Assembly: GCA_019670725.1 (NCBI GenBank)
Contig: AP024629.1
Coordinates: forward strand, 3,038,001 to 3,102,000
DNA length: 64,000 nucleotides
Direction of reading: 5' to 3'
Origin: Alphaproteobacteria bacterium SO-S41
Lineage (GTDB): Bacteria > Pseudomonadota > Alphaproteobacteria > Micropepsales > Micropepsaceae
Shown here: positions 5,433-51,214 of the stretch, one piece after another
How positions within the stretch are numbered: the first letter of the stretch is position 1
Layout of the letters: the number at the start of each line of letters is the position of its first letter
Position numbers and translations under genes: made by a program
Notes under the pieces: model-generated
Seen by the model: only the letters and a program-made list of their open reading frames with translations
The model's database searches: none
What the model was told of the DNA's origin: nothing

Positions 5433-5435
5433 GCC

Positions 5436-8133: not shown

Positions 8134-8146
8134 GCTGGGGATGAGC

Positions 8147-9067
8147 TTAGGGCGCGCCGATCAGCGCATCGACCTTGGCAACCAGCGACACATCCGGTGC
8201 ACGCGACGCTACTGCGGCGTTGGCCGCGAGGTGCCCTGCCGCGTAGTTCGAGGTGATGACGACGCCCTCAGGGTTCACCGCGAAAGCGTAGTCGAGCAAC
8301 AGCGCCGGCAGATCGTCCGTGTCGAGCGCCTTGATCGCCTCGGGCTTCTGGCGCGCCACGCGCTTCAGCGCATCGAGCGCGCCGGCGACGCCAAACACCG
8401 AATGCGTGACCGTGAAGGCCGGAGCGCCTTTCAGCGCTGTCAAGTTGCGCGCGAACGGCGAGTTCGCGACCTGCGCGACATCGACCGGCAGGCCGGCCGC
8501 ACGGGCCGCCGCGATCACGTCGGGCGAGCCCGCCACGCCGATACGCGCGGCGAGGCCCTGATCGCGGAGATCGGTCAGCGCGGCGATGACATCGGGATTG
8601 CGCACATCGTCCAGCGACGGCTCGTGCAGCGCGAGCACCGCGACGCTGTCGCGGCCGAGCCGTTCGAGGCTCTGGAACAGGCTGATCCGCACCGTCTCGC
8701 CGTCGAGCGCCACGCGTTGTGCGCCGTCGGGGCGCAGGCGCTTCACCAGCGGACGCAGCGCCGGTATCGCCGCGACCAGCGGGCGCGCAATCGATCCGAT
8801 CGCGCGCTTGGCGATGTTTCGGCGCGGCGCGACGAGGCCGACCTTGGTCACGACGGCGACGTTCGCGCCCCGTAGCGCTTCACCAAGGATCTTCTCGGCG
8901 CCGCCATCGCCATAGGACGGCGCGACGTCGAACCACGTCACGCCGGCGGCGAGCGCGCGCTCGATCGCCGCGCGTCCGGTTGCCGCCGAGACGCGCGAGC
9001 CCAGGGACGCGCAGCCGAATCCCAGCGCCGAAACGGGTCCGACGCCGTCGAGCGTAACGTTGCGCAT
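8147..9067 (-). CDS. Aldo/keto reductase family protein
   Basis: 306 residues. The family is recognisable from GFGCASLGSRVSAATG at the N-terminus, GVTWFDVAPSYGDGGAEKIL (Asp and Tyr of the catalytic tetrad), VVTKVG (Lys) and the barrel pattern that follows, with ALHEPSL in place of the usual histidine region. It would use NAD(P)H to reduce a sugar carbonyl or aldehyde, or run the reverse reaction. It ends the minus-strand glycosyltransferase group, 2 bases after the GT4 gene. Together with the GMC enzyme across the repeat element it suggests redox tailoring of a sugar; this link is inference. Confidence 0.8.
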   Translation of the reverse strand: MRNVTLDGVGPVSALGFGCASLGSRVSAATGRAAIERALAAGVTWFDVAPSYGDGGAEKILGEALRGANVAVVTKVGLVAPRRNIAKRAIGSIARPLVAAIPALRPLVKRLRPDGAQRVALDGETVRISLFQSLERLGRDSVAVLALHEPSLDDVRNPDVIAALTDLRDQGLAARIGVAGSPDVIAAARAAGLPVDVAQVANSPFARNLTALKGAPAFTVTHSVFGVAGALDALKRVARQKPEAIKALDTDDLPALLLDYAFAVNPEGVVITSNYAAGHLAANAAVASRAPDVSLVAKVDALIGAP

Positions 9068-9069
9068 GA

Positions 9070-10311
9070 TTACTCCGCCGCGACGGCGACGGAGGACGGC
9101 GTCGCCGGCGGCTTACCCTTGCGGGCGATGTCGCGGAGCGCCGTGAAGAGGCGGTTCATCTGATTGTCGATCGACCACGGCACGATCTTGTCGTGTACGA
9201 CCTGCGGATCGACCTTGCCTGCCTTGATCTCGGCCCACTGCGCCAGGATCGCGTCGGAGGCGAGCACTTCGGAATCTTCGACCGTCGCCCCGCGTTCGGC
9301 CATGCGGCCATTCACACCCTGCGTCACGACCTGGTCGTATTGCGGCAAACGAAGCCCGCCGAACGGCCGGCCGCTCGCCAGCAGCTCCAGCAGGAAGCAC
9401 GGCATGCCTTCCCAGTGCGAGACGAGAATGCCCATGTGAACCTTCTGCATCACCGCCGCGACGCCTTCGGGCAGCAGCGCGCCGTGGCGCACCGTGTATG
9501 CTTCGATGGCCGCGAATTCTGGGAAGCGATGCGGATCGGCAGAGCCGCAGAAATGGAACTCGAACGCGCCGTCCAGCTTCTCGTGCAGCCGCCGCGCGAC
9601 GCGGAACATCAGCGACGGGTCCTTGAACTCGTCGAGCCGGCCCGCATAGACGAGGCGCAGCTTGCCGTCGCTGAGATCGAACGGCGTCGCGTGATACATG
9701 TCGGTGTCGACGGAGACGGTCAGCACCTCGGCCTTCTTCGCCTGGCTTGGATATTTCTGCGCGATGCGATCGCGGATCTTGGGCGTGACGCAGAAGATGC
9801 GCTTGGCGAGACGGAAGGCCATCCATTCGGCCATCGCGTTGATGCGCCAATGACGGCTTAGCACCGAGTCCATCTTGTCGGTCTTCGGGTCACCTTCATT
9901 ATGCGCCATGACGACGAGCGGACAGCCCAGCATGCGCGCGAAGGGCGCGAACTCGAAACGCTCGACCTCGGCCGAGGCGGCCTCGCCGGCGATGATGCGG
10001 CGCAGCTTGGGGATATGGCGGCCCAGTGCCTTCGCGAAGCGGAAGGTGACGGAGTTCGAGACGTTCTTCGCGGCCGTCGTCTGCGCGTTGGTGGGGATGT
10101 GCAGGACCGGCACGAAGTCGATCTCGCGGCCGGCGACGGTGATCGTTACCATCTTGCCTATTTCCAGATCGCCGAAATCGTCGAGCCCGATCATCAGCAC
10201 GCGCATGTCGGCGGGGTGCTTGCGCAGCACCTGACGCACATGGGTCTCCATGCCGCCGACCTTGGTGCCGCGGGGATCGAAGCAGTGAATGGAGACGAGG
10301 CGTTGGGTCAT
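9070..10311 (-). CDS. Glycosyltransferase, GT4-like
   Basis: 413 residues from ATG 10311 (MTQRLVSIHCFDPRGTKVGG); an in-frame TTG at 10329 would add six residues. The two-domain GT-B layout shows a GGMETHV donor/acceptor loop near residue 26, MAHNEGDPKTDK mid-protein, then KLRLVYAGRLDEFKDPSLMF starting the C-terminal Rossmann domain and GILVSHWEGMPCFLLELLASGRP, the E-x7-E region of GT4. It likely adds a sugar to the lipid-linked repeat unit on the cytoplasmic face. Donor sugar unknown. Preceded by the methyltransferase gene in the same operon. Confidence 0.82.
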   Translation of the reverse strand: MTQRLVSIHCFDPRGTKVGGMETHVRQVLRKHPADMRVLMIGLDDFGDLEIGKMVTITVAGREIDFVPVLHIPTNAQTTAAKNVSNSVTFRFAKALGRHIPKLRRIIAGEAASAEVERFEFAPFARMLGCPLVVMAHNEGDPKTDKMDSVLSRHWRINAMAEWMAFRLAKRIFCVTPKIRDRIAQKYPSQAKKAEVLTVSVDTDMYHATPFDLSDGKLRLVYAGRLDEFKDPSLMFRVARRLHEKLDGAFEFHFCGSADPHRFPEFAAIEAYTVRHGALLPEGVAAVMQKVHMGILVSHWEGMPCFLLELLASGRPFGGLRLPQYDQVVTQGVNGRMAERGATVEDSEVLASDAILAQWAEIKAGKVDPQVVHDKIVPWSIDNQMNRLFTALRDIARKGKPPATPSSVAVAAE

Positions 10312-10332
10312 ATGCGCAGGGTCCGGCAAGGC

Positions 10333-10989
10333 TCAGCGAACGGCGATGAGGGATTTGGTGAAGCCATAGGCGCGCTCGCGCTCCAGCTTCCCATCGGGGA
10401 AGAGATGCATGAAGCGGCGCGCGTCGAGCAGATTGGAATCCTCGATGAAGCGCTGCGCGTCGTCGATATTCGTGGCCTTGGGGAAGGCGCCCAGCGGCCG
10501 GCGCATCGCCTTGTTGACGCGCATCGGCTCGGGCAGCCAATGGAAGAACAGCGAGCGGAAATGAGGCTCCATCGGGAACCAGTAATTCGGGGTCTGCACG
10601 AAATAGCGCGGCGCGAGGCGGCGCACCTCGCGCGCCATGGCGCTCATCTCCGACCAGCGGCCGACATGTTCCATGACGGAATTGGAATGGACGACGTCGA
10701 AACTGTTGTCGGCGAAGGCGCTCATGTTAGTGCAATCGCCCTGGATCGCCTCGAAGCGCGGGTCGTCCAGCCGTTCGGGCTGCAGGTTCACCACGGTGAA
10801 GGAGAGATTGCGTCCCGCCCACACCGGTTCAAGGTCCAGCCAGTAGTCGCGGTTGCCGCCCATATCGAGGACGCGGCAGCTGCCCTGCTTGGCGAGGATC
10901 TCGTCGGCGATCTCGACAAAGCGTTTCAGGCGCTTGGCGCGATAGCCCGTCTGGGCGCCCCAATGCTCCTCGCCAACCTTACCAGCCAC
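10333..10989 (-). CDS. SAM-dependent methyltransferase of the polysaccharide locus
   Basis: 218 residues from a GTG start with AAGGAT nine bases upstream. The class I Rossmann motifs are CRVLDMGGNRDYW (motif I), FTVVNLQPE, IQGDCTNM and FDVVHSNSVMEHVGRW (motif IV/post-I). Probably methylates a sugar or a lipid-linked intermediate. It is divergent from the GH10 gene across a 62-base gap that contains GTATG-N10-CATAC, and it heads the methyltransferase-GT4-AKR transcript. Confidence 0.82.
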   Translation of the reverse strand: MAGKVGEEHWGAQTGYRAKRLKRFVEIADEILAKQGSCRVLDMGGNRDYWLDLEPVWAGRNLSFTVVNLQPERLDDPRFEAIQGDCTNMSAFADNSFDVVHSNSVMEHVGRWSEMSAMAREVRRLAPRYFVQTPNYWFPMEPHFRSLFFHWLPEPMRVNKAMRRPLGAFPKATNIDDAQRFIEDSNLLDARRFMHLFPDGKLERERAYGFTKSLIAVR

Positions 10990-11051
10990 GTGCCAAATCC
11001 TTAAGTATGCTGAGGTTAGTCATACACATCGGCGGTTAAGGGAGCGTGCGC

Positions 11052-12161
11052 GTGAAGCTCGACCGGAGAGGCTTTCTGGCGGCCGGCGCTGCGGCGGCGC
11101 TGCTGCGTCCTGGAGTTGCACAGGCTGTGTCGCCGCTCAACCTCGGCGCCGACGCCGCCGACCGGGGGATCGTATTTGGCAGCGCCTTCGACCGTGAAAT
11201 CTTCGACGACACAGCCTATGCCGCCCTTCTACGCGCCCAATGCCGCATCGGATCGCTGGAGAACAGCCTCAAATTCGACTGGCTGAAGCCGACCGGAAAT
11301 GTCGCGGATTTCAGCGCTTCCGACCGGCTCGTCGACTTCGCCGTGGAGAGCGGCATACGACCGCGCGGCACCGCGCTGATCTGGAACGACTGGCTGCCAG
11401 ACTGGCTGAAATGGACGACGGTGCTGGAGCGTCGTTCGATCATGGAAAAGCACATCGACGAAGTGGTCGGGCGCTATGCCGGACGCGTGCAATCCTGGGA
11501 CGTGGTGAACGAGCCTTTCTTCCCGCCGCACGGCATCGACGGTGGCTATCGCAAGGGCCTGTGGCTGGATGCGATGGGGCCGGATTACATAATCCACGCA
11601 TTCAAGCGCGCCGCAGCGGCCGATCCCAAGGCGCAGCTCGTGCTCAACGAAGCCTTCTGCGAACAGGACGACGAGCTCGGGAAATCCATCCGGCCGCTGC
11701 TGCTGAACGAGGTGAAGCGGCTGCAGGATGCGGGCGTCAAACTGGACGCGATCGGGTTCGAAGCGCATCTGAGGCCCGAGCTCCCGTACGACGATCAGGC
11801 CTTCGTAGCCTATGTCGCCGAGATCGCGGCGCTGGGCGTCGACGTGATGATCACCGAGCTCGACGTCAATGACAGCCACATGCCCGACGACGAGGCCGAG
11901 CGCGATGCGCAGGTCGCGGCGCGGGTGCACGATTTCCTGGGCGCGGTGCTGCAGGTACCGCGGGTGACGACGGTGATCACCTGGCATCTCAGCGATCGCT
12001 ATTCCTGGTATCGCGGCGCGGACTGGTATGCCGATCAGGTGCGCGCCGGCGGCGGCACGCCGGGTCGTCCGGTCAGATCGCATCTCTACGACGATCAGTT
12101 GCAGCCGAAGGCGGCGGCGTTCGCTGCACGCGATGCGCTGAAAGCGTCAGGCCCGCACTAG
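11052..12161 (+). CDS. Tat-exported GH10 family glycoside hydrolase (endo-xylanase-like)
   Basis: 369 residues using GTG 11052, chosen because AAGGGAG lies eight bases upstream; GTG 11046 is possible. The N-terminus is a twin-arginine signal (DRRGFLAAGAAAALLRPG). GH10 hallmarks are the acid/base Glu154 in WDVVNEPF and the nucleophile Glu269 in ITELDVND, plus TWHLSDRYSW near the end. GH10 enzymes cleave beta-1,4-xylans and some other beta-glycans. Placed beside the flippase and polymerase genes it more likely trims or releases the organism's own polysaccharide than degrades plant xylan; that is inference. It overlaps the convergent flippase gene by 15 bases. Confidence 0.88.
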   Translation: MKLDRRGFLAAGAAAALLRPGVAQAVSPLNLGADAADRGIVFGSAFDREIFDDTAYAALLRAQCRIGSLENSLKFDWLKPTGNVADFSASDRLVDFAVESGIRPRGTALIWNDWLPDWLKWTTVLERRSIMEKHIDEVVGRYAGRVQSWDVVNEPFFPPHGIDGGYRKGLWLDAMGPDYIIHAFKRAAAADPKAQLVLNEAFCEQDDELGKSIRPLLLNEVKRLQDAGVKLDAIGFEAHLRPELPYDDQAFVAYVAEIAALGVDVMITELDVNDSHMPDDEAERDAQVAARVHDFLGAVLQVPRVTTVITWHLSDRYSWYRGADWYADQVRAGGGTPGRPVRSHLYDDQLQPKAAAFAARDALKASGPH

Positions 12162-13580
12162 GCGGCTGCGCACCTTGGCGAACGCGACGCGCGCGCCGTC
12201 GGGGAACATCACCCCCATGGCGATGCCGTAGACGAGCACGCCGGCGGCGACTTCGATCAGCATGCCCGTCAGAGAATGAGCGAGCGGCAGGAAGACGAGC
12301 ACCGCCGTCATCGCCGCCGTCGCGCCGGCGATCTTCGCGATATCGGCGAGGCGCAGGTAGAAGCCGAACAGGCGGTTGGCGACGATGAAGCTGAAGAGCT
12401 CGCCGATAATCGCGGCGACGAGACAGCCCGCGACGGCACCCTGGATGCCGCCGATGCGGAGGCCGATCCAGCAGCACACGACGATCGCGCCGGCCTCCAG
12501 CATCGTGCTCCAGATGTTCAGCGTCGTGCGCTCGAACAGCAGGAAGACCTGGTCGGATCCGTGGTTCTTGAACGCGCGGATGGCCCCGGCCGCGACCGCC
12601 ATGGGCAGGATGTCGATGGTGATGGGCACATAGGCGGCGGCGACCAGCGTCTCGACCAGCGACTCGTTGAGGACGATGACTCCCGCGACCGATGGCACGA
12701 GAATGGCGAGCAGCAGCGCGCTGTTGGTCGCGAATTGCGGCAGCGCGCCGGCGGCGCCCAGTTCATGGATCTTCTGCACGGCGATGGTGAACGAAGCGCC
12801 CGTCACCAGCATCGCGGCGAAACTGGTGAGGCGGAGGCCCAGCCACCAGCCGACCGTGACATAGCCGACCGCGGCGACGTCAAATTCGAGCTGAACGATG
12901 AAGCGGATCGCCTGGCTGCCGACCCAGACGAGCAGGCTCGCCACCACCAGCGGCGCACCGTAGCGCCAGGCGGCGGCCAGCAGCTTCGCATCGGGCCGGG
13001 GCCGCACGGCCTTGAGGCGCATCAAAGGCAATGCAAGCGCGAGCGCCAACACCTGCGCCACCGTATAGGCCCAGAGCAGCGCCTCGGGCGTCGGCCCGAT
13101 GAAGTTGACCGCGAGCAGGCCGAAGACCAACCCGATGCCGGAGCCGACGATCTGGATGACGCTGAACGCGGTGATCTCGAAATGCGCGCGGGCCCGGTCG
13201 GCGAAATGGCTGCCGATATTGCGGGTCAGCGTGAAGCAGACCGCCGCCGCGATGAAATGCAGCGTCGGCTCGATATCGAGGAAATAGCGCACGGCCAGCG
13301 CCGCGAACGCCGCCTGGAACAGCGCGGCGGCGATCTGCACCGCCCACTCCATGCCGTCGAGCCGGGCGCGGTCGGTGAGGGTCGAAGTGTAACGCAGCAC
13401 GAAAGCCGACCACCAAGCGAGCGCTGCGAGCCCCGCCACCTCCTGGATCGCCCAGACCAGCACATAGGCGCCGAGCGCCTCGGGCGCGAGCCAATAGGTC
13501 CAGACGACCGCCGCCGCCATCTGCGCCAGCGGCCCGATCACCTGGGCCGGCAGATAGAGAATGGTCTGGCGCATCAGCAT
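12147..13580 (-). CDS. Wzx-like polysaccharide flippase
   Basis: 477 residues from ATG 13580 (MLMRQTILYLP), two bases after the polymerase stop. About 12-14 hydrophobic segments are spread evenly (for example GPLAQMAAAVVWTYWLAP, ALWAYTVAQVLALALALPL, ILVPSVAGVIVLNESLVETLV), the layout of MATE/MOP-superfamily polysaccharide exporters. It would flip the undecaprenyl-linked repeat unit to the periplasm. The same frame stays open upstream through the polymerase gene, but that stretch is antisense-like sequence and not part of this protein. Confidence 0.85.
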   Translation of the reverse strand: MLMRQTILYLPAQVIGPLAQMAAAVVWTYWLAPEALGAYVLVWAIQEVAGLAALAWWSAFVLRYTSTLTDRARLDGMEWAVQIAAALFQAAFAALAVRYFLDIEPTLHFIAAAVCFTLTRNIGSHFADRARAHFEITAFSVIQIVGSGIGLVFGLLAVNFIGPTPEALLWAYTVAQVLALALALPLMRLKAVRPRPDAKLLAAAWRYGAPLVVASLLVWVGSQAIRFIVQLEFDVAAVGYVTVGWWLGLRLTSFAAMLVTGASFTIAVQKIHELGAAGALPQFATNSALLLAILVPSVAGVIVLNESLVETLVAAAYVPITIDILPMAVAAGAIRAFKNHGSDQVFLLFERTTLNIWSTMLEAGAIVVCCWIGLRIGGIQGAVAGCLVAAIIGELFSFIVANRLFGFYLRLADIAKIAGATAAMTAVLVFLPLAHSLTGMLIEVAAGVLVYGIAMGVMFPDGARVAFAKVRSRLVRA

Positions 13581-13582
13581 CG

Positions 13583-14887
13583 CTAGCGCGCCTCCGCCGG
13601 CCGCGGACGCGGCGCGCGCCGCATCAGGATCAGCAGCATCACCACGAACTGCGCCAGCGTCGTCGACTTGCCCGACAGCGAGGCAGAGGTGGAGCAGACC
13701 GTCAGGAAGAACAGGATGGGCCAGAAGGCACGCACCTGCGTCGCTCGCCAGAGGTCGTAGAAAAAGGTCAGCAGGCCGATAAAGAACGGCAGGCTGATCA
13801 GGATGCCGTAATAGGCGATGAAGGCGATCCAGAAGCTCTCGATGCCGAAGGCGATGCCTTCGGTCCGCTGCAGCGTCGCGACGACTTCGGGATCGGCGCC
13901 GACCAGCAGCTCGTGAAACGGGATGCGGCCGATCAGGTCGAACATCCGCACGCGGCTTGCGGCCGAGCCCTCGTCGCTGATGAAGCGCATGATGAATTTG
14001 TCGAGGAAGCCGTCGGCGACCAGCAGGATGATGCCGATCACCAGCACGGGCACCAGGAAGGCGGCGGCTGCGGCGGCGTTCACCGAGAACTTGCGGCCAT
14101 TCAGCAGCAGGATCGCATGGCGGAAGGCGATCACGCCCGCGAAGAGCCCGAAAAGCAGCGTCGCGAAGCGTCCGCCGAACACCGCCATCGCGAAGATCTG
14201 CAGCAGCAGCGCGGCGGCGCGCCAGCCCGACGTCAGATCGCGCCCGCCGCCGAGCAGCAGCATCAACGCGTAGGACGCCGCATGGAGGGCATTGTTGAGG
14301 GGGTGGCCGAGCAGCGCCGACGAGCGGTAGTCGGAGTTCAGCTCCATCCCCTGCGCGACGATCGGCGTCAGGCGCCAGCCGGTGCCGAACTCCGCAATGC
14401 CGAGTAGCGCGTTCGCCGCCATGAAGACGTGGATGAACAGCGCCATGCTGCGTTTGTGCGCGGGCGACAGGCGCACCACGATGATCGACAGGGCGATCGG
14501 CAGCAGGAAGGAGTCGAACGTCGCCGTCAGCGGCGAGCCCTGGAACACCACGATGTAGGCGAACAGCATCGCCCAGGTGATGAGGAAGACGAGCGTGCCC
14601 TTGTGGCGCTGGATGATCTCGTCGAGCAGCGCCATCGCATTGCGGCGCTCCGCGAACATGGCGAGCAGCGCCAGGAAGGCGAAATAGGTCGCGGGCGCAA
14701 TCTTCTGCCACTGCGCGCCGCCCGAGGTCTCATAAGCCATGCCGAGCATGGTGAGCATCAGGCTGGAGACCAGATACATCACCGCGACCGACGCGAAGGC
14801 GAAGAACGCCATCGGGCCGATGCCGCCGGTTTTCCGGCGGGGCGGCGACTTGATCCAGGCCGATGCGTTCATCTCGTTCGCCGGCAT
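13583..14887 (-). CDS. Wzy-type polysaccharide polymerase / O-antigen ligase-like protein (VpsF-like)
   Basis: 434 residues from ATG 14887; a TTG at 14905 overlapping the preceding gene would add six residues. It has roughly 11 transmembrane segments and a large periplasmic loop between about 280 and 340 (DKFIMRFISDEGSAASRVRMF, FHELLVGADPEV), as in Wzy/WaaL proteins. SRVRMFDLI is the sort of Arg-containing periplasmic motif these polymerases use. The overall look is that of the VpsF group. Polymerises repeat units in the periplasm. Operon order on minus: copolymerase, polymerase, flippase. Confidence 0.78.
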   Translation of the reverse strand: MPANEMNASAWIKSPPRRKTGGIGPMAFFAFASVAVMYLVSSLMLTMLGMAYETSGGAQWQKIAPATYFAFLALLAMFAERRNAMALLDEIIQRHKGTLVFLITWAMLFAYIVVFQGSPLTATFDSFLLPIALSIIVVRLSPAHKRSMALFIHVFMAANALLGIAEFGTGWRLTPIVAQGMELNSDYRSSALLGHPLNNALHAASYALMLLLGGGRDLTSGWRAAALLLQIFAMAVFGGRFATLLFGLFAGVIAFRHAILLLNGRKFSVNAAAAAAFLVPVLVIGIILLVADGFLDKFIMRFISDEGSAASRVRMFDLIGRIPFHELLVGADPEVVATLQRTEGIAFGIESFWIAFIAYYGILISLPFFIGLLTFFYDLWRATQVRAFWPILFFLTVCSTSASLSGKSTTLAQFVVMLLILMRRAPRPRPAEAR

Positions 14888-14901
14888 GGCGATGCCCGCC
14901 T

Positions 14902-16983
14902 TCAAGCCGTCGCCTTGCCCGCCATCGTCAGCACGATGCCGCAGGTCTTTTCGCCGCGGATGCGCAGCGCGCGCAGGGCGGCGGCGACATCGCCGCGCGT
15001 GGTCGATTCCGCCTTAAGGACGAGCGCCACCTGGTCGACCGCTTCCGCGATGGCACGGGCATCGGGCTCATCCCGCAGGGGCGCGCCGACGAAGAGGACA
15101 TAGTCGAATCGCGCGCGGGCATAGGTGATCAACCGCTCGATCGCGGCGCGCGACGGGCGATAACGCGAGACCTTGGACGTCACGGCCATCGGCAACGCCT
15201 GGAAGCCGCTCGCGCCCGAACCGGCCAGCGCATCGGTGAAGCGCACCTTGCCGGCCAGCACTTCCATCAGGCCCACCGACGCGTCCGGCGCGACCATGGC
15301 CGAGAGCGAGCGGTTGACGGGATCGGCGTCGATGATCAGGACGCGCTCGCCGGCGGCGACTGCCGCGAGGGCGAGATTGAGACCCACCAGAGCCGAGCCA
15401 TCGCCCTTGCGTGAGGCAACGATCAGGGCGGAGCGTTCGGCCTGACGCTGAACAGGATCGCGCAGCTCGGCGCGGAGCAGGCGGATCGCATAGTCGAAGC
15501 TGCCGTCCGGCCCGCGCTTGCGCGCACGGAAAGGCGGCACCACGGCAAGAACGTCGAGCCCCGCGCGACGCAGCTGCGCCGCGTTGCGGATGCGGTCGTC
15601 GAAGCGCTCGCGCAGCAGCGCCAGCGCGGCGCCGCCGCCGAGGCCCAGCGCCAGCGCGATGCCGATGATGAAGAGACGCGGCGGGAACGAGGCCGCCGAC
15701 GGCATCGCAGCCGGCGCGATGACGCGGGCAGACGAGATTTCCAGCCGCTCCTGCTCGCTCGTTTCCTTGGCGCGGGCCAGAACGGATTCGTAGACTTCGC
15801 GGATGGCATCGGCCTCGCGCTGCAATTCGCGGAGCTGGATGAGAACGCCGGCGTCCTTCACGTCCTGTCCGGTGACGCGGTCGAGTTCGGCCTGCAACGC
15901 GGCGACGTCGCCCTTGGCGCGTTCCAGGTCGTTGCGCGCGGAGGCGGCGATACGCCCGACTTCCGCATTGATCTGCGCCTGCAGGCTTGCGACTTCCGCG
16001 CGCACCTTGATGACGGAGGGATGGCGGTCGCCCAGCGTCGCGGAGAGATCGGCCTCGCGGCGCTGCGCATCGGCGAGCTGCGCGCGCAGCGCGGCGATCA
16101 CCGGCGACGCCAGCGCTTCCGACGACGAGGCGGCGTCGCTGCGGCTGATCTGGTCGTAGCGCGCCTGCGCCGTCGCCAGCTTGGCGCGCGCTTCGACGAG
16201 GCGCTTGTTCAACTCGTCGAGCTGCTGCTCGGTCGTCGCAGAACCGTCCTTGCCGACAAGGCCGTTGGCGGCGCGATAGGCTTGAACCTTGTCTTCGGCG
16301 GCGCGCAGCTGCTCCTGCAATTCGGAGAGGCGCGCGGTCAGCGCTTCGTTGGCGCGGCGGGTTGCGGCGCGCGCGGCATCGTTCTGGTCGTCGATATAGG
16401 CCGCGGTCACGGCATCCGCGACCTTGCGCGCCCAGACCGGATCCTTGGCGGTCGAGCGCACTTCCAGCACATAGGTGCGGTCAGCGCGGCTGGCCGCAAT
16501 GCGGCGGCCGAGCGTGTCGAGCGCGCTCGCGGCGCGCTCAACGGGGTCTTCGGACTTGCCGCCAAACTCCTCGACATTAGCGAGGCCGAGCGTTTCGACG
16601 ACGCGGCCGAGCACGGCGTCCGAGGTGATGACGCGCACCTGGCTTTCCACAAGCGCGGCGTCGGAGCCCGAACCCGCGGAGAGAACTTCGGTCTGCAGCA
16701 CGCGTTGATCGCGCGGGTCGAGCAGCAGCAGCGCCGAGGTCGTGTAGAGCTTGGGCGTCACCACGAGATAAGCGAGCGCGAGGCCGACCAGCAGAACGGC
16801 GGGCACGACGACGGTCAGCCAGCGCCGGCGCAGGATGTCGATCAGGCCGCGAATATCGATGCCGTCTTCGCCGGGATGATTGTCCGGCTCGAACGCAACC
16901 GGGGGCGGCGGCGGCCGGTGATCGCCGGCGCGCCGCAGCGGACGGGCGCCGCCGCTATAGGGGGTCATCGCAGCCGACTGCAT
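14902..16983 (-). CDS. Wzc/GumC-like polysaccharide copolymerase with degenerate kinase domain
   Basis: 693 residues from ATG 16983, with AAGGAT upstream. A Wzz domain with an N-terminal TM (WLTVVVPAVLLVGLALAYLVV) leads to a long periplasmic coiled coil (about 190-430) and a second TM (LFIIGIALALGLGGGAALAL). The cytoplasmic BY-kinase-like domain follows. Where an active kinase has GEGKS/T it reads KGDGSALVGLNL, so the Walker A Lys and Ser/Thr are missing. The Walker A' LIIDADPVNRS is kept. The C-terminus (EKTCGIVLTMAGKATA) has no tyrosine cluster. It should control chain length and span the envelope to the OPX lipoprotein, but probably does not autophosphorylate. Confidence 0.88.
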   Translation of the reverse strand: MQSAAMTPYSGGARPLRRAGDHRPPPPPVAFEPDNHPGEDGIDIRGLIDILRRRWLTVVVPAVLLVGLALAYLVVTPKLYTTSALLLLDPRDQRVLQTEVLSAGSGSDAALVESQVRVITSDAVLGRVVETLGLANVEEFGGKSEDPVERAASALDTLGRRIAASRADRTYVLEVRSTAKDPVWARKVADAVTAAYIDDQNDAARAATRRANEALTARLSELQEQLRAAEDKVQAYRAANGLVGKDGSATTEQQLDELNKRLVEARAKLATAQARYDQISRSDAASSSEALASPVIAALRAQLADAQRREADLSATLGDRHPSVIKVRAEVASLQAQINAEVGRIAASARNDLERAKGDVAALQAELDRVTGQDVKDAGVLIQLRELQREADAIREVYESVLARAKETSEQERLEISSARVIAPAAMPSAASFPPRLFIIGIALALGLGGGAALALLRERFDDRIRNAAQLRRAGLDVLAVVPPFRARKRGPDGSFDYAIRLLRAELRDPVQRQAERSALIVASRKGDGSALVGLNLALAAVAAGERVLIIDADPVNRSLSAMVAPDASVGLMEVLAGKVRFTDALAGSGASGFQALPMAVTSKVSRYRPSRAAIERLITYARARFDYVLFVGAPLRDEPDARAIAEAVDQVALVLKAESTTRGDVAAALRALRIRGEKTCGIVLTMAGKATA

Positions 16984-17019
16984 CTTAACCAAATCCTTGT
17001 CAGGCGCCCCGCCGCTCTT

Positions 17020-17787
17020 TTACGAGCTTCGGCGTGCGCCTGCACCTCGCCACCGAGCCCATAGTAAACGCCAAAGAAATTTAGAATTTCCCAAAAGGTA
17101 GCGCTGCCACAGCCGCCCCGGCTCCCGGCCGAGCCGGTAGACCCACTCCATGCGCACCGCGCGAAACGCCGCGGGCGCGCGGGAAACCCGGCCCGAAAGG
17201 AAATCGAACAGCGCGCCGACGCCGACCGCGACGCTGCACTCGAGGGCCGCGAAATTTCGGTCGATGAATTTTTCCTGGCCGGGATTTCCGAGCGCCACCA
17301 GCAGGATATCGGGTTTTAGCGCGTTGATGGCGGTGACAATCCCCGCTTCTTCCCAGGCGTGGAAATAGCCGTGATAGGCGCCGGCGATGACATGCTGTGG
17401 CGCCAGTTCGGCGATCCGTGTGCCCGCCATGCCCGCAACGCCCGGCAGGCCGCCGAGCAGATAAATGCGGGCCGACGTCTTCGTCTCGGTGAGAAAGCGC
17501 GGGGTGAAATCGGTGCCGTTGAGGTTTTCGGGAAAGCGCGCGCCATGCAGCACGCGGCCCGCGATATCGACACCGACGCCGTCGTTAAGGATCGTGAAAC
17601 CATCGAGCACCGCGCGAAAGGCCGCGTCCCGGCCTGCGAGGTTCGAGGTATGCGCGTTGAGAAAGCCGAGCTTGATCCGCTCGCCCCGCGCGCGGCGCGC
17701 GTTGATGTCGGCGATCGCCTCGTCGGCTGTCGCGGCGGTGACCCTGACACCCATGATGTCGCGTGTCGGCAGCGCTGTTTCGCTCAT
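17020..17787 (-). CDS. WecG/TagA/CpsF family glycosyltransferase (GT26)
   Basis: 255 residues. Family motifs in order: LGFLNAHTSNLA, ILNDGVGVDIA (residues about 67-77), ENLNGTDFTPRFL, IYLLGGLPGVA, LVALGNPGQEKFI and GVGALFDFLSG followed by RAP. GT26 enzymes transfer ManNAc(A) or other sugars from UDP donors to lipid-linked acceptors. The start ATG overlaps the stop of the upstream GT4 gene by four bases (ATGA), so the two are coupled. Downstream is the copolymerase gene after 36 bases. Confidence 0.9.
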   Translation of the reverse strand: MSETALPTRDIMGVRVTAATADEAIADINARRARGERIKLGFLNAHTSNLAGRDAAFRAVLDGFTILNDGVGVDIAGRVLHGARFPENLNGTDFTPRFLTETKTSARIYLLGGLPGVAGMAGTRIAELAPQHVIAGAYHGYFHAWEEAGIVTAINALKPDILLVALGNPGQEKFIDRNFAALECSVAVGVGALFDFLSGRVSRAPAAFRAVRMEWVYRLGREPGRLWQRYLLGNSKFLWRLLWARWRGAGARRSS

Positions 17788-18857
17788 GGTGCCGTCACCT
17801 CCGCGATCAGCGTTTCGAATTGGTCGAGCGCGCGGTCGAGCGAAAACGTATCGGCGCGGACGCGATGCGTGGCGGGATCGCCGGGATCCGCCAGTGTCGC
17901 GTCGATCGCCGCCGCCATTTCAGCAACATTGCCGACGGCGACGAGTTTGCCGTCGAGCCCGTTGCGCAGCACCTCTTCCGGCCCGCCACAGCGCGTGGCG
18001 ACGACCGGAATGCCATGGCCGAGCGCCTCGACGATCACATTGCCGAATGCTTCGGTGCGCGAGGAGAGCGCCAGCATCTTGGCCTCCGCATAGGCGGGCC
18101 AGGGCTCTTTCAGATAGCCGCGAAACGTGACGCGATCGGCGATCCCGAGATTTTTTGCGAGCGCCTCCAGCGCGCCACGCTCGGGCCCATCGCCGAGCAC
18201 GACGAGCTGCGGATTCTGCGTGGATTGCGCAATTGCGGCCAGCAAAGTGGCGAAGTCTTTCTCCGGCACAAGACGTCCCACCGCGAGCACGATATTGGGA
18301 CGCGCCGCGAGCGCCTCTGCCGTTGGTATGCTTTCGAACGGGGGCAGGTGGATCGCGTTGTGAATTGTCGTCACGCGATCTGGCCGGGCACGAAAACGGC
18401 GGATGAGATAATTCCTGAGATCGTCGGAGACGACGACGGTGCGCGCCGACAGGCGGCTAGTGAAGATCGTCGAGGCGTAATTGAAACGGCCGAGGAAACG
18501 CGGCTCTGCATCGTAGCGACCGTGCGCCGACAGCACCGCCGCGCCCTTCCAGCGCGCCAGCGTTTTCGCCAGCAAAAGCTTGAGGTTTGACGCACCCACC
18601 GCGGCGAAGGCGACCGCCGGCTTTTCACTTTTCAGATAGCGCGCGATCGCCCGCACGGCCTTGCCGTGACCCTGCCCGAACACGACGCGCTTCATGTCGG
18701 CGGGCAACAGCCCGGCATTTTCCGGCGCTTCGAAATCGACTCCGAACGTCACATCCCAGCCACGCGCGTGCAGGCCGGCTGCCACCAGCGCCCATACCCG
18801 CTCGGCGCCGCCACCAACCAGGCCGTGTGTATAAAATAGCAGCCGCTTGTTAGGCAT
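17784..18857 (-). CDS. Glycosyltransferase, GT4 family
   Basis: 357 residues, a full GT-B enzyme. Seen are FYTHGLVGGGAERVW at the N-terminus (GGAE acceptor loop), VTTIHNAIHLP, then the C-terminal donor domain with NIVLAVGRLVPEKDF, LVVLGDGPERGAL and SSRTEAFGNVIVEALGHGIPVVAT, which holds the E-x7-E motif. Cytoplasmic sugar addition to the repeat unit is the likely role. It is first in a minus-strand operon (GT4-GT26-copolymerase-polymerase-flippase) and is divergent from the propeller gene. Confidence 0.9.
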   Translation of the reverse strand: MPNKRLLFYTHGLVGGGAERVWALVAAGLHARGWDVTFGVDFEAPENAGLLPADMKRVVFGQGHGKAVRAIARYLKSEKPAVAFAAVGASNLKLLLAKTLARWKGAAVLSAHGRYDAEPRFLGRFNYASTIFTSRLSARTVVVSDDLRNYLIRRFRARPDRVTTIHNAIHLPPFESIPTAEALAARPNIVLAVGRLVPEKDFATLLAAIAQSTQNPQLVVLGDGPERGALEALAKNLGIADRVTFRGYLKEPWPAYAEAKMLALSSRTEAFGNVIVEALGHGIPVVATRCGGPEEVLRNGLDGKLVAVGNVAEMAAAIDATLADPGDPATHRVRADTFSLDRALDQFETLIAEVTAP

Positions 18858-39448: not shown

Positions 39449-41080
39449 ATGTTCCGATTCCTCGCCATCGCCTTGCTTGCGGTCCTTGCCGCGTCTCCGC
39501 GTGCCGCGTGGGCGCGCGAGGAAGCGCGCACGATCGTCGTGCTGCACGATGGCGGCGATGAGGCCTCGCCGCTGGTCTATGCCGCGCCCGTCCTGAAATA
39601 TCTGGGCCTGCTGGTCGAGCCGCACAGCGCCGCCGATCCCCTGCCCGATCTCGCCGGCCGCGCGGATGTGCGCGGCGTGCTGATCTGGCTCGACACCGGT
39701 GCCGTCGCCGATCGTGCCGGCTTCACCGCCTGGGTGCGCGGCGCCACGCAGCAGGGCCTGCCGGTGGCGCTGATGGGCGCGACACCCGACGCCGACGACC
39801 GCTTCGGCCTCTTCCTCGCGCTCGACCTGCTCTACGCGCATGACGAGCGCGCTTACACCTACGACCTGCGCGCCGTGGAGAAGGACACGGCGTTGATCGA
39901 AGCCGAGCGGCGCTTCGACAATCTCTTCCCACCCGTTGACATCGTGCGCCCGCTGCAGGACGCGGCCGTTCAGCCTCTGCTGGTGCTGCAGCGGCGCAGC
40001 GACGTGACCGATCGGACGATGCCGCTGATCGTGACGCCGAAGGGCGCCTATGCGGCGGCCGGCTATGCGCTGTGGGTCTCGCCGGACGGCAAGACGCAGC
40101 GCTGGATGGTTGATCCCGTCGCCTGGTTCCGCCTCGCCTTCCACCTCGATGCGGTGCCCACCCCCGACCTGACGACGCTGAACGCGCGCCGCATCTTGTC
40201 GCTCGCGCTCGCGCCGTCAGGCCCGGATGACGGGCCGGCGGCGATCGCGGCCGGCGAGCACCTCATGGCCGGCCATCCCGAGCGGTCGCTGGACGTGCTG
40301 CTGGATGGTCCGGGCAACCGCGGCCCAGTCGCACCGCCGCGCCCCTGCGCGGATCGCGCCCGCGCGCATCTCATGGGCTACAGCCATCTGCTCGCGCAGT
40401 TGGATGCCGGCGAAGCGCCGCGCCGCATCGCCGGCTACACGCCGGTGCTGCTCGTCTGCGAGGCCGAAAGCGATCTGACCGCCGGCGCCGCCAATGCGGT
40501 GCTGGGGCACGCGCGCACGCTGCCGCTGGCGACCTCCAAAATCTCGCCCGAGGCGCTCGACATCGATTTCGGCGCAATCCGGCTTGATCGCATCGATACC
40601 GGCGTGTGGCGCGTCCTCGATCGCGGCGCGCTGAACACGCTGCGCTTCGACGATGCCGATCACCTGCGCATCGACTGGAGCCGGACCGAGGGTGTGCTGG
40701 GCGCGGGCCGCGTCCATGGCGCGCTCTATATCTCGCTCGATCCCGATGCGGGCGAACCGGTTGTCGCGCTCACCAACATGCCGTGGGAGCCGCCGCCTTT
40801 CGCGACGCTGGTCGAATCCCGCTGGATGATCTCCGGCCTCGTGCGCGACGTCGAAACGGCGGCGATGAACGTCCAGGGCTCCGGCCCCGGCGACATGGTC
40901 TGGTCGGTCGAGCCGTTCTCGGAATGGGAGCTCACTTTCAAGCCGAAGACCGGCGCGCCCGCGCGCTATCGCGCCGTGGCCGGGTTCGACGGCGTGCTGT
41001 CCTTCTCGCTGCCCGCGTCGGCGGGCGATGGCGGCACGCTGACGTTCGAACGGCACGACCTTGCGGAGGTCGGACCATGA
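39449..41080 (+). CDS. PelA-like exported protein with degenerate deacetylase domain
   Basis: 543 residues; signal peptide about 1-22 (AAWA). Three regions recall PelA: an N-terminal segment (LKYLGLLVEPHSAADPLPD, VRGVLIWLD); a join GAYAAAGYALWVSPDGKTQRW...VDPVAWFRLAFHLDAVPTPD leading to TTLNARRI; and a C-terminal beta region (VWRVLDRGALNTLRF, GALYISLDPD). In PelA the strand after RRI starts the NodB-type deacetylase with an HIDGD-like metal site. Here it reads LSLALAPSGPDDG and no metal-binding His pair follows, and the domain is shortened. A catalytically dead PelA relative in an envelope complex is the reading; homology is judged by eye only. Confidence 0.5.
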   Translation: MFRFLAIALLAVLAASPRAAWAREEARTIVVLHDGGDEASPLVYAAPVLKYLGLLVEPHSAADPLPDLAGRADVRGVLIWLDTGAVADRAGFTAWVRGATQQGLPVALMGATPDADDRFGLFLALDLLYAHDERAYTYDLRAVEKDTALIEAERRFDNLFPPVDIVRPLQDAAVQPLLVLQRRSDVTDRTMPLIVTPKGAYAAAGYALWVSPDGKTQRWMVDPVAWFRLAFHLDAVPTPDLTTLNARRILSLALAPSGPDDGPAAIAAGEHLMAGHPERSLDVLLDGPGNRGPVAPPRPCADRARAHLMGYSHLLAQLDAGEAPRRIAGYTPVLLVCEAESDLTAGAANAVLGHARTLPLATSKISPEALDIDFGAIRLDRIDTGVWRVLDRGALNTLRFDDADHLRIDWSRTEGVLGAGRVHGALYISLDPDAGEPVVALTNMPWEPPPFATLVESRWMISGLVRDVETAAMNVQGSGPGDMVWSVEPFSEWELTFKPKTGAPARYRAVAGFDGVLSFSLPASAGDGGTLTFERHDLAEVGP

Positions 41081-41631
41081 ACGGGCCGCTGCGCTTCCTG
41101 TCGGGCATCCCGCTGATGCTGATGGCGGCGGCGCTGCTGGTGCTCGGCCTGCAGCGGGTCGTGCCCGCGCCCGGCCCCGTGGTCGTCGCCCCGTCCTATA
41201 GCGATCTGCTGATCGAAGACGGCCAGTTCGATGCCGCCGTTTTCTGGAACGGCGTGCTGGCGAAGGACGGCGATCCCGCCGCGCTGCGCCGCCTCGCCGC
41301 CACCGCCGATCTCGCAGGCCTGCCGGGGATGCGCGCCTCCGCGCTGGAGCGTCTGGTCAAGACGGGCCGCGCGACGCTGGCCGAGCATGTCGAAACGGCG
41401 CAATTGCTGGCCTGGGCCGGCGCGCTGCCCGATGCGCTGACGGTCATGTTCAACGCCGAGCGCCGCTTTCCCGACAAGGTCGATCTCTCGTTCCTGTCGT
41501 TCTACGCAGCGCTCGCCCGCGATTGCCGGCGCGCCGATGTCGCCGTGCCGCTGGCCCAGCGCATGTGGACACAGACCGACAATGAAGCGGTGCTGCGTAT
41601 CCTGATCGACCTCTCCGGTACCGGGCGCTAG
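41077..41631 (+). CDS. Membrane-anchored helical-repeat protein, partner of the PelA-like gene
   Basis: 184 residues; the start overlaps the upstream stop (ATGA). One N-terminal TM (GIPLMLMAAALLVLGLQRVV) is followed by a periplasmic domain of antiparallel helices of TPR/Sel1 type (YSDLLIEDGQFDAAVFWNGVL, ALRRLAATADLAGLPGMRAS, TAQLLAWAGALPDALTVMFN, VAVPLAQRMWTQTDNEAVLR). Its coupling to the PelA-like gene suggests the products work together, as PelB TPRs do with PelA. It is far smaller than PelB and has no beta-barrel. Function unknown. Confidence 0.55.
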   Translation: MNGPLRFLSGIPLMLMAAALLVLGLQRVVPAPGPVVVAPSYSDLLIEDGQFDAAVFWNGVLAKDGDPAALRRLAATADLAGLPGMRASALERLVKTGRATLAEHVETAQLLAWAGALPDALTVMFNAERRFPDKVDLSFLSFYAALARDCRRADVAVPLAQRMWTQTDNEAVLRILIDLSGTGR

Positions 41632-41635: not shown

Positions 41636-42997
41636 TCACAGATACCAGTCGTGCTCGTGCGCCGGGATGGTGGCGTTGAAGCGCTTGTATTCGACGCGCT
41701 TCGCCTCGGCATAGACATCGACATAGACGCCGAGCGCCGAACGCAGGACCTTGGAGTTCTGCAACTCCTCCAGCGCCCACATGATCTCGAACGGCACGGT
41801 CGGATCGAGGAAGTCCGACGCATCGCCCTCGTGCGGCGGGCCGGGATCGATCTTGTTGTCGAGCCCGTGCTTGATGCCGAGCAGGATCGCGGCGAGGACG
41901 AGATACGGATTGGCGTCGGCGCCGGCGACCCGGTGTTCGATGCGCGTCGCCGCATCCTCGCCCGCGGGAATGCGCAAGCCCGTCGAGCGATTGTTGATCC
42001 CCCAGCGCCGGTTGACGGGCACGAAGAGATTGGGCGTGAAGCGGCGGAACGCGTTGGCGTTCGGCGCGAAGATCGCCATCGCCTCGTGCATCGTCGCGGC
42101 GAGGCCGCCGACGGCATGGCGCAGCGTGTCGGTGAGGCCCGGCATGCCCGCGAAGACGTTCTTGCCGTCTTTCATCAGGCTGACATGGACATGCATCCCG
42201 CTACCCGCCGTGCCCGAATAGGGCTTCGCCATGAAGGTCGCTTCCATGTTCTGCTCGCGCGCTACCGTCTTGATGAGCGGGCGCAGCAGTGCGGCGTGAT
42301 CGGCCGCGGCGATCGGATCGTCGATGTGGTTGAGATTGATCTCGAACTGGCCCGGCGCGTATTCGGCGACGGCGGTCGTCGCGGGAATATGCTGGCGCTT
42401 GCACTCGTCGGCGACCGCGGTGAGGAAGGTGTTGTAGCGGTCGAGATCGCTGATGCCGTAGACCGAGATCGCCTTCTCGCGGATGCCCGTTGTCGGGCAA
42501 AGCGGCGGCTGCGGCGAGCCCGCGCCGGTGCGGTCGGGATCGATCAGGAAGAATTCCAGCTCCACCGCCACAACGGGCGTCAGCCCCGTTTCGGCGAACT
42601 GCTCCATGGCGTGGATGAGGACGTTGCGCGGTTCGACCTCGAGCGGGTTGCCGTGCTGGTCGTGCAGAGTCATCATCACCTGCGCGCGGCGATGCGGCGC
42701 CTTGCCGACCGTCACCAGCGTGCCGGGCACCGGATAGGAGGTGCCGTCGGGATCGCCGTCGTCCGAACCGAGACCCAGCGGATTGGTCATCTCGCCGCGC
42801 GCATCGAGCATGAAGATGTCGCCCGGCATCTGCATGCCGATCGTGTAGAGCTTGCGTGCATCCGAGATGGGGACCCGTTTACCGCGCAAGGCGCCGTTCA
42901 GATCGATGAACACGGCGTCGACGATGGCGATGTCGGGATGAGCGGCGAGGAATGTATCGAATTCGGCGGCTGGAGAAGCCTGATCGGTATCCGGCAT
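41636..42997 (-). CDS. Glutamine synthetase-family gamma-glutamylpolyamine ligase (PuuA-like)
   Basis: 453 residues from ATG 42997 with AGAAGGG upstream. Glutamine synthetase metal and ATP motifs: VAVELEFFLIDPD, SPGQFEINL-type APGQFEINLNHID, GTAGSGMHVHVSL, NRRWGINNRSTGLRIP and RIEHRVAGADANPYL. The N-terminal DLNGALRGKRVP and EVEPRNVL match PuuA rather than GlnA, so gamma-glutamylation of putrescine or a related amine is likely. The adjacent PotD-like binding protein and the speD/speE genes fit. Ends four bases from the TPR gene, convergent. Confidence 0.85.
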   Translation of the reverse strand: MPDTDQASPAAEFDTFLAAHPDIAIVDAVFIDLNGALRGKRVPISDARKLYTIGMQMPGDIFMLDARGEMTNPLGLGSDDGDPDGTSYPVPGTLVTVGKAPHRRAQVMMTLHDQHGNPLEVEPRNVLIHAMEQFAETGLTPVVAVELEFFLIDPDRTGAGSPQPPLCPTTGIREKAISVYGISDLDRYNTFLTAVADECKRQHIPATTAVAEYAPGQFEINLNHIDDPIAAADHAALLRPLIKTVAREQNMEATFMAKPYSGTAGSGMHVHVSLMKDGKNVFAGMPGLTDTLRHAVGGLAATMHEAMAIFAPNANAFRRFTPNLFVPVNRRWGINNRSTGLRIPAGEDAATRIEHRVAGADANPYLVLAAILLGIKHGLDNKIDPGPPHEGDASDFLDPTVPFEIMWALEELQNSKVLRSALGVYVDVYAEAKRVEYKRFNATIPAHEHDWYL

Positions 42998-49094: not shown

Positions 49095-50279
49095 ATGCCG
49101 CTCGCTCTCCTCGCCCTCGCCGCCGGCGCCTTCGGTATCGGCGTCACCGAATTCGTCATCATGGGCCTGCTGATCGAGGTCGGCGGCGATCTCGGCGTTT
49201 CGATCCCCGCGGCGGGCCTGCTGATCTCCGGCTATGCGCTCGGCGTCGTGGTCGGTGCGCCGCTGATGACGACGCTGACCGCGCGCTGGCCGCGCAAGAC
49301 GACGCTGCTGGCGCTGATGGCGGTCTTCACGCTCGGCAATCTCGCCTGCGCCCTCGCGCCCGACTACGGCACGCTGATGGCGGCGCGCATCGTGACCGCC
49401 TTCGCGCATGGTACGTTCTTCGGCGTCGGCTCGGTCGTGGCGACGACCTTGGTCGCGCCCGATCGCAAGGCCTCGGCCATCGCGATCATGTTCACCGGCC
49501 TCACTGTCGCGAACATCCTTGGCGTGCCTTTGGGCACCTGGCTCGGCCAGAGCTTTGGCTGGCGTTCGACCTTCTATGTCGTGACCGCGATTGGCGTCGC
49601 GGCATTCGCCATCATCGCCACGCTGGTGCCGGCGGACCGCGCAGCGCCGGAGCAGACGCGGCTGCGCGACGACCTCAAGGTGCTGGCGCGTCCAGCCGTG
49701 CTGCTCGGCCTCGCGACGACCGTGCTGTCGTGGATCGGCGTCTTCGCGGCCTTCACCTATATCGCGCCGCTGCTCACCGAGGTCGCGGGCTTCGACGAGG
49801 GTTCGGTGTCACCGATCCTGCTCGTCTTCGGCGCCGGACTGGTGGCGGGCAATTTCCTTGGCGGACGGCTCGCCGATCACCGCGTCATGTCGGCCGTGCT
49901 AGCGACGCTGGCCACGCTTGCCGCCGCGCTGCTGGTCATGGCCTTCGCGATCCACAGCCAGATCGGCGCCATCGCGTCCGTCTTCCTGCTCGGCGTCGCC
50001 GGCTTCGCGACCGTGCCGCCGCTGCAGATGTGGGTGCTGAACAAGGCCGAGGGCGCGGGCCAGAGCCTCGCCTCGAGCTTCAACATCGCCGCCTTCAATC
50101 TCGGCAATGCGATCGGCGCGTGGCTGGGCGGTGCGGTGATTGCGGGCGGCTTCGGCCTCGCCGCCCTGCCCTATGTGGCCGCCTTGGCGCCGCTTGGTGC
50201 ATTCGTTCTGGCGCTGCTGTCGCGGCGGCTGGAGACGCGCTCTGCGCCGGCCGCCGCGCCGCTCTGCCCTCAGGCGTAG
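49095..50279 (+). CDS. MFS efflux transporter, AraJ/DHA1 type
   Basis: 394 residues from ATG 49095 (MPLALLALAAGAFGIGVTEF, the usual AraJ-like start); GTG 49050 would add 15 residues. Twelve TMs are expected. The DHA1 loop motif between TM2 and TM3 appears as GAPLMTTLTARWPRKTTLL, and TM4-5 has FAHGTFFGVGSVVATTLVAPDRKA. Probably a drug/H+ or sugar efflux pump under the divergent LysR regulator. It overlaps the convergent beta-lactamase gene by 10 bases. Confidence 0.88.
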   Translation: MPLALLALAAGAFGIGVTEFVIMGLLIEVGGDLGVSIPAAGLLISGYALGVVVGAPLMTTLTARWPRKTTLLALMAVFTLGNLACALAPDYGTLMAARIVTAFAHGTFFGVGSVVATTLVAPDRKASAIAIMFTGLTVANILGVPLGTWLGQSFGWRSTFYVVTAIGVAAFAIIATLVPADRAAPEQTRLRDDLKVLARPAVLLGLATTVLSWIGVFAAFTYIAPLLTEVAGFDEGSVSPILLVFGAGLVAGNFLGGRLADHRVMSAVLATLATLAAALLVMAFAIHSQIGAIASVFLLGVAGFATVPPLQMWVLNKAEGAGQSLASSFNIAAFNLGNAIGAWLGGAVIAGGFGLAALPYVAALAPLGAFVLALLSRRLETRSAPAAAPLCPQA

Positions 50280-51214
50280 GTCGCCGCGATCCGCCCGACC
50301 TCGGCGAGGATCGTCGCGTTCTCCTTCATCGTGCGTCCCTTGCGGTCGTAATAGACCGTGACGATCAGCGGCGCGCGGCCGGGCGGCCAGATGATCGCGA
50401 TGTCGTTGGTCGGGCCGTCCTCGCCGGTGCCGGTCTTGTGGCCGATGATCCAGTCGCCCGGCAGGCCTTTGCGGATTCGATCAGGCCCCGTCGTCGTCGC
50501 CTTTATCCAGCCGGTCAGGATCTCGCGCGAGGCGGGTGTCAGGGCATTGCCCAGCAAGATGGCCTGCATCGTCGCGGCCATGGCGGCGGGCGAGGTCGTG
50601 TCGCGCGTATCGCCCTTGGCGACATCGGCATTGTTCATGTGCGGCTCGAAGCGGTCGAGGCGCGTGACGCTGTCGCCGAGCCCGCGCAGGAAGACCGTTA
50701 CGAACTCCGGACCGCCGCACTCCTTCAGCAGCAGATTGGCGGCGGCGTTGTCGCTGGTGGTGATCGTGGCGTGGCACAGTTCGCCGATCGTCATGGTCTG
50801 GCCGACATGCTTCGCCGTCGTGTCCGAGTTGGGCACGATGTCGCTCTTGGCCACAGGGATGGCGCGATCGAGGCTGATGTCGCCCGCATCCATGCGCTGC
50901 AGGATCGCCGCCGCCAGCACGAACTTGAACGTCGAGCAGAGCGCGAAGAGTTCGTCCGCGCGATGGCCATAGCTCTGCCCCGTCCCGGTATCGCGCACCG
51001 CGACGCCCAGCCGCCCGCCTTCACGGCCCTCAAGCGCGGCGAGCGCGCCGACGGGATCCTTGTGCAGCGGCTCGGCCTCGGCGGCGCGGGCCGACAGGCG
51101 CAGACCGCCGACCACCGCAAACCCGGCCAAAGCAGGAAGGAAGGCTGCCAAAGACGCGCGGCGGGTCAGTCCCCGGCGCGCCGTGAATTCGGTCTTAGGA
51201 TTAGTTTTCTTCAT
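50270..51214 (-). CDS. bla: Class A beta-lactamase with Tat-type signal
   Basis: 314 residues. The N-terminus (ARRGLTRRASLAAFLPALAG) has twin arginines before a hydrophobic stretch. All class A motifs are intact: S-T-F-K at Ser94-Lys97 in LCSTFKFV, S-D-N at 154-156 in TTSDNAAAN, Glu190 in LDRFEPHMNN (Ambler 166) and K-T-G at 260-262 in GHKTGTGEDG. It should hydrolyse penicillins/cephalosporins in the periplasm. Spectrum not deducible; Cys precedes the active-site Ser as in several class A enzymes. Divergent from an AmpR-type gene. Confidence 0.95.
   Translation of the reverse strand: MKKTNPKTEFTARRGLTRRASLAAFLPALAGFAVVGGLRLSARAAEAEPLHKDPVGALAALEGREGGRLGVAVRDTGTGQSYGHRADELFALCSTFKFVLAAAILQRMDAGDISLDRAIPVAKSDIVPNSDTTAKHVGQTMTIGELCHATITTSDNAAANLLLKECGGPEFVTVFLRGLGDSVTRLDRFEPHMNNADVAKGDTRDTTSPAAMAATMQAILLGNALTPASREILTGWIKATTTGPDRIRKGLPGDWIIGHKTGTGEDGPTNDIAIIWPPGRAPLIVTVYYDRKGRTMKENATILAEVGRIAATYA

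Follow-up and report, generated by a model that had tools for sequence, protein, structure and literature searches.

Two short, overlapping genes (ORF1 and ORF2) in the 64,000-nucleotide stretch of Alphaproteobacteria bacterium SO-S41 DNA analysed here (the window) descend from pelA and pelB; they have about an even chance (a probability of roughly 0.5) of being the remnant of a pel operon that has turned into a non-catalytic periplasmic scaffold or glycan-binding pair. Counted for this explanation were the homology of the two proteins to PelA and PelB, the chromosomal slot shared with complete pel operons, the PelA tree, a loss confined to one genus, the absence of PelF, PelG and the PelB barrel, purifying selection, a conserved pair of cysteines and the well-folded domains. 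Against it stood the evolution of both genes at about twice the rate of their neighbours, the retention of TPRs other than those that bind PelA in P. aeruginosa, and a promoter scan that yielded only a weak consensus site ahead of the kinase. The gene order in the window is pepN, histidine kinase, ORF1, ORF2, glutamine synthetase and polyamine-binding protein. The two reading frames, the length of 543 residues for the first protein and the ATGA overlap had been described in an earlier interpretation of the same DNA (the sequence-only reading), and were confirmed. The features are listed below by window coordinates and strand, with the domain limits of ORF1 set using those published for P. thermotolerans PelA (hydrolase, residues 37-292; mixed alpha/beta domain, 293-498; deacetylase, 499-792; then a beta-rich domain; PMC12022489).

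36778..39381, +, membrane histidine kinase 67 bp upstream of ORF1, with PAS, HisKA and HATPase domains and a weak match to dCache by Pfam
39449..41080, +, ORF1, short PelA homologue lacking both the hydrolase and the deacetylase active site, 543 aa
39449..39514, +, putative signal peptide of ORF1, residues 1-22, ending in AAWA, read from the sequence
39518..40198, +, mixed alpha/beta domain of ORF1, residues ~24-250, aligned to 9CGY chain residues 268-480
40199..40573, +, deacetylase (CE21/NodB-like) remnant of ORF1, residues 251-375, from the alignment with full-length relatives
40346..40348, +, Cys300 of ORF1, invariant in five aligned short proteins
40457..40459, +, Cys337 of ORF1, invariant in five aligned short proteins
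40574..41077, +, beta-rich C-terminal domain of PelA in ORF1, residues 376-543, placed by aligning the profile to 9CGY as far as chain residue 893
41077..41631, +, ORF2, PelB N-terminal remnant, 184 aa, 42% identical to the PelB of a related genome (G006)
41095..41160, +, membrane helix of ORF2, residues 7-28, from the sequence and the AF2 model
41197..41619, +, ~4 helical pairs resembling TPRs in ORF2, residues 41-181, AF2 pLDDT above 90
41636..42997, -, glutamine synthetase family gene bordering the slot on the right, conserved beside pel operons or their remnants in the family

The single-sequence phmmer search of the PDB with ORF1 returned one entry, PelA (9CGY), with an E-value of 1.7e-11 and ORF1 residues 35-254 aligned to chain residues 268-480, and a profile of ORF1 and its relatives matched the same structure over positions 25-541 (E = 4e-50), which bears out the earlier proposal of a PelA-like protein. 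The AF2 model of ORF1 (mean pLDDT 74, pTM 0.71) also had 9CGY as its best PDB match, both with Foldseek (E = 3e-22) and with VIA-align (Z 21.1, 446 residues, rmsd 6.3); the mixed alpha/beta domain was modelled well except for residues ~140-160, and the pLDDT of the beta-rich domain was mostly 80-92. Judged by sequence comparison, ORF1 is thus a PelA homologue by descent. With Pseudomonas PelA (9CGY; the founding member of CE21) it has in common the mixed alpha/beta domain and its end (DPxAF...PxPDxTTxNxRR), the C-terminal remnant of the deacetylase and the beta-rich domain, all in the same order, as well as pelB as the next gene downstream. Unlike Pseudomonas PelA, it is devoid of the hydrolase, of ~200 deacetylase residues and of all metal-binding and catalytic residues, and lies outside a pel operon. 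The PelA domain order with a C-terminal beta region, as given in the sequence-only reading, stood, but the N-terminal part proved to be the mixed alpha/beta domain and not a glycosidase segment. The hydrolase (alpha-1,4-N-acetylgalactosaminidase) domain was absent, with ORF1 and the profile aligning to 9CGY only from chain residue 255 on; a hydrophobic N-terminus was common to all five aligned ORF1 orthologues. The closest relatives of ORF1, by tree and by slot, are full-length alphaproteobacterial PelA proteins that also lack the hydrolase (G049, G006, G010, G032 and others), those of G049, G010 and G032 beginning directly with the mixed alpha/beta domain, as ORF1 does, whereas they differ from it in keeping DGD, HxxxH and YYH and in belonging nearly always to PelG-bearing genomes. 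Since the hydrolase is missing also from the complete PelA of G049, this domain was probably gone before the deacetylase was lost. No family was assigned to ORF1 or ORF2 with the Pfam, NCBIfam and PADLOC libraries; the silence of Pfam carries no meaning, because it is blind even to full-length alphaproteobacterial PelA.

The deacetylase is reduced to ~125 residues in ORF1, compared with ~290 in the full domain; the deletion takes out ~200 residues of the barrel, beginning with HIDGDG, including HxxxH and stopping short of the last strand. At the site of the (I/M)YFSHIDGDGW of the relatives, ORF1 was found to carry ILSLALAPSG, and in the residual strand the short proteins have Leu or Thr in place of the catalytic histidine. 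The HxDGD, HxxxH and YYH motifs were missing from the alignment in all five proteins of the genus, having been deleted or replaced, which agrees with the earlier description of a shortened deacetylase without metal-binding histidines. In the AF2 model only beta-alpha ... beta-alpha was predicted for this region, with residues 285-330 at low confidence; metal binding by the shortened domain was rejected, as no His/Asp set remains. The remnant is also the fastest-evolving part of ORF1 and contains indels. The invariant Cys337 lies two residues after the lost catalytic His, in a column that is never Cys in 19 full-length PelA proteins, and Cys300 and Cys337 may form a periplasmic disulfide that closes the truncated domain.

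The start of ORF2 overlaps the stop of ORF1 in all five genomes of the genus (ATGA or GTGA). ORF2 had been proposed to encode one transmembrane helix and TPR-like helices, as a reduced PelB might, and this was supported by an AF2 model with an overall pLDDT of 88, for which the Foldseek matches were TPR proteins, by blastp against residues 116-223 of the PelB of G006 (42% identity over 108 aa, E = 3.7e-23) and by hhalign of the ORF2 family against PelB N-termini (99.3% for the TPR part). The membrane helix is placed as in PelB, where it also precedes the TPRs, but it could not be aligned in sequence. The PelB of G006 comes from the same chromosomal slot in a related genus, and the part aligned to ORF2, residues 96-225, corresponds to the repeats nearest to the inner membrane. 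From these alignments, ORF2 is a reduced PelB by descent, 184 aa long as against ~1000 plus a barrel in PelB; it ends after the TPRs, and the C-terminal beta-barrel porin, which is the outer-membrane pore, is absent from it along with the PelA-binding TPRs. P. aeruginosa PelA was reported to need TPRs 9-14 of PelB, with modelled contacts to TPRs 9-15 and 13-19 (PMC12022489). The repeats kept in ORF2 are membrane-proximal and not TPRs 9-19, which leaves the pair without the classical PelA-PelB interface.

The slot flanked by pepN and the histidine kinase on one side and by glutamine synthetase on the other has the same borders in related genomes. In G006, G010 and G032, which belong to other genera (g3, g7 and, for one genome, g5), it holds a full pel operon, composed of the kinase, Hpt and receiver genes, a pelA with deacetylase, a pelB with TPRs, a separate barrel gene, a PelD-resembling GAF protein, pelF and pelG. 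These operons were read from pairs of contigs, because the contigs are broken within pelA; in G006 both ends of the operon are fixed, since pepN borders it on one contig and glutamine synthetase on the other. The Hpt and receiver genes were located between kinase and pelA in the pel-positive relatives (L021:1229-1962, L019:9072-9840 and L022:3634-4346). In the genus of the window, ORF1 orthologues were found in 5/5 genomes and the slot holds only the two short genes, with the qualification that one contig does not include the left border and that an extra gene precedes glutamine synthetase on two contigs; four of the five genomes are MAGs, and that of the window is a single 4.44 Mb contig. The extra gene, of ~402 aa, lies between ORF2 and glutamine synthetase (L017:2330-3538 and L018:3755-4963) and resembles, by eye, an NhaA-type antiporter. 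The sequence-only reading had noted no pelC-G nearby, and for PelF and PelG this was extended to the whole genome, as PelG and PelF (PF16933 and PF11997) were absent from all five genomes of the genus, two of them rated 100% complete, in searches where the positive controls matched. The PelB barrel was likewise not found in the five genomes with a three-sequence barrel profile, which matched G006, G010 and G032 (its own sources) as well as G469, G421, G209 and G049. PF16963 (PelD_GGDEF) matched no genome, the pel-positive ones included.

In the PelA tree (FastTree, shared columns), the five short proteins grouped with the three full-length PelA proteins of the family, with a support of 0.999 and a long stem, and a separate acquisition of ORF1 was rejected on the basis of this tree and the shared slot. 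Several genomes have the kinase directly beside glutamine synthetase, among them the relatives G008 and G013, which have no pel genes. A homologue of the PelB barrel was found alone in the slot between kinase and glutamine synthetase in another genus of the family (G009; L080:7983-9524 on G009:C1, a frame of 513 aa, E = 1.8e-37); pelA and PelG were not found in this genome, where the same operon has left a remnant of a second kind. The family thus provides a graded series, from the full operon to truncated PelA and PelB only, barrel only and empty slot, which looks like the stepwise erosion of one ancestral pel operon.

The loss of the deacetylase is confined to the genus of the window, being found in 5/5 of its PelA homologues and in none of the 19 full ones elsewhere in the class. 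PelA homologues were detected in 21 of 387 alphaproteobacterial genomes, 19 of them outside the genus, where pelA spans ~2.1-2.3 kb and the deacetylase motifs (DGD, HxxxH and the catalytic His) are present in 19/19, with Q for the first His in G049; the possibility that all alphaproteobacterial PelA are short was accordingly rejected. PelG was also present in 18 of these 19 genomes, the exception (G364) being a fragmented genome with pelA near a contig end. No other PelA with the same deletion was seen in 397 genomes of the phylum, and a scan of genome contigs matched only MAGs of the genus and one distant sequence. A shortened tandem duplicate of pelA was observed beside a full-length copy in G490 (L087, G490:C18:174877-176283), with a different internal deletion that affects the mixed alpha/beta domain as well as the first half of the deacetylase. 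In the published survey, every PelA homologue with a searchable genome was in a pel operon (PMC12022489), but this survey required over 85% coverage and would have missed proteins of the ORF1 type.

Among the alternatives, a periplasmic accessory of the neighbouring histidine kinase, with the truncated PelA and PelB binding a glycan and signaling to the sensor domain, is considered unlikely. The kinase has a periplasmic dCache-like region, its distance to ORF1 is 67 bp in the window and 67-77 bp in two more genomes of the genus, and it is immediately upstream in a fourth, the contig of the fifth beginning too near ORF1; no promoter- or terminator-like site was seen on the + strand between kinase and ORF1. 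In the pel-positive relatives, pelA is also preceded by the kinase with its Hpt and receiver genes. Against this, the Hpt and receiver genes next to the kinase have disappeared from the slot in the genus of the window, where only the kinase stays, and the kinase is kept beside glutamine synthetase in G008 and G013. Its persistence in relatives without pelA indicates that it does not depend on the truncated PelA; the association with ORF1 and ORF2 is positional only, and the link is weakened. A working role in a different system of exopolysaccharide export, for instance in a Wzx/Wzy-type cluster, where ORF1 and ORF2 would guide or protect the chain without deacetylating it, is improbable as well. 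The usual substrate of PelA and PelB is a chain crossing the periplasm (PMC12022489), and Wzz-like, Poly_export (Wza-like), WecG-type and GT4 glycosyltransferase genes are present in the window; nevertheless, this cluster is unlinked (20 kb away) and has a different assembly logic, and the porin part of PelB is gone. The Wzx/Wzy-type exopolysaccharide cluster spans window positions 3334-18857 and comprises a BBP2 barrel, Wza-like Poly_export, Wzz-like and WecG-type proteins and GT4 glycosyltransferases.

Both short genes were open in all five species, at pairwise protein identities of 42-70%. For the closest species pair, dN/dS was 0.26 for ORF1 and 0.25 for ORF2, compared with 0.10-0.13 for the right-hand neighbours, and within ORF1 it was 0.21 for the mixed alpha/beta domain, 0.25 for the beta-rich domain and 0.35 for the deacetylase remnant; distant pairs were near saturation at third positions, so their ratios are not trustworthy. 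Divergence in the closest pair was dominated by the third codon position (0.20, 0.16 and 0.45 at positions 1, 2 and 3 for ORF1; 0.18, 0.15 and 0.42 for ORF2). In neutral simulations at the observed synonymous distance (d 0.8), ORF1 remained free of stops in 0/400 runs and ORF2 in 3-5%. By these comparisons, ORF1 and ORF2 are maintained by purifying selection under a constraint looser than that of their neighbours, and their evolution at about twice the rate of the neighbours also fits slow relaxation. That the pair is functionless, decaying debris of a pel operon, yet undisrupted, would accommodate this faster evolution, the poorly modelled remnant with its indels and the piecemeal operon loss in other genera of the family, but it is very unlikely in view of the frames intact in five species, the conserved start/stop overlap, the dN/dS of ~0.25 and the simulation, and the open frames and this ratio imply that the genes are not simply debris. 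The retention under selection agrees with the repurposed module of the sequence-only reading rather than with decay.

For the pel remnant with a non-catalytic role, the following history can be proposed. A complete pel operon would have occupied the slot in the ancestor of the family; the ancestor of the genus would then have lost the genes for synthesis and export, together with the barrel and most TPRs of PelB and the deacetylase core of PelA. What remains of PelA is the mixed alpha/beta domain, linked to the beta-rich domain by a short remnant, and what remains of PelB is a TPR stub that has a membrane helix and overlaps ORF1 translationally; both frames have stayed open under purifying selection throughout the speciation of the genus. 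The stub would have its anchor in the inner membrane and its TPRs in the periplasm, where it may hold the exported ORF1 protein. Free of enzymes, ORF1 might act as a non-catalytic scaffold or glycan-binding protein, performing neither deacetylation nor hydrolysis, and its ligand may be an envelope polymer or that of another exopolysaccharide; alternatively, it could aid another envelope complex. More tentatively, the non-catalytic PelA domains might be a self-sufficient glycan-binding or scaffolding device and the pair, once synthesis, deacetylation and export had been lost, an inner-membrane-anchored envelope sensor or assembly factor, possibly feeding the adjacent kinase, which would make ORF1 a PelA homologue working outside any pel operon.

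What the mixed alpha/beta and beta-rich domains do was left open in the 2025 paper on the PelA structure (PMC12022489). The natural deletion fixed in this genus removed the enzymes and kept exactly these two domains, whose function thereby becomes directly testable. A PelA without deacetylase and a PelB reduced to an anchor and a few repeats, both retained after the genes for making Pel, a biofilm sugar, had been lost, point to a new, non-enzymatic job for old parts, and the case illustrates how an exopolysaccharide operon may erode into a different, selected module.

The model of ORF1 residues ~25-234 also matched the folds of oligosaccharyltransferase (OST) chains (Z 12-13 over ~195 residues, these matches reaching to ORF1 residue ~400), the IFT52 N-terminal domain (Z 10.8) and ThuA-like domains (Z ~10.5), all at ~10% identity. 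The OST chains are presumed from their length to be of the OST48/Wbp1 type. In the predicted structure this amounts to a resemblance of fold only, and the non-enzymatic scaffolds among these proteins (OST chains, IFT52) fit the proposed role but prove nothing. Further along the window, a beta-lactamase family protein (50270-51214, - strand; PF13354, E = 1.9e-48) was found to be conserved in a relative of the genus (L015:1277-2191).
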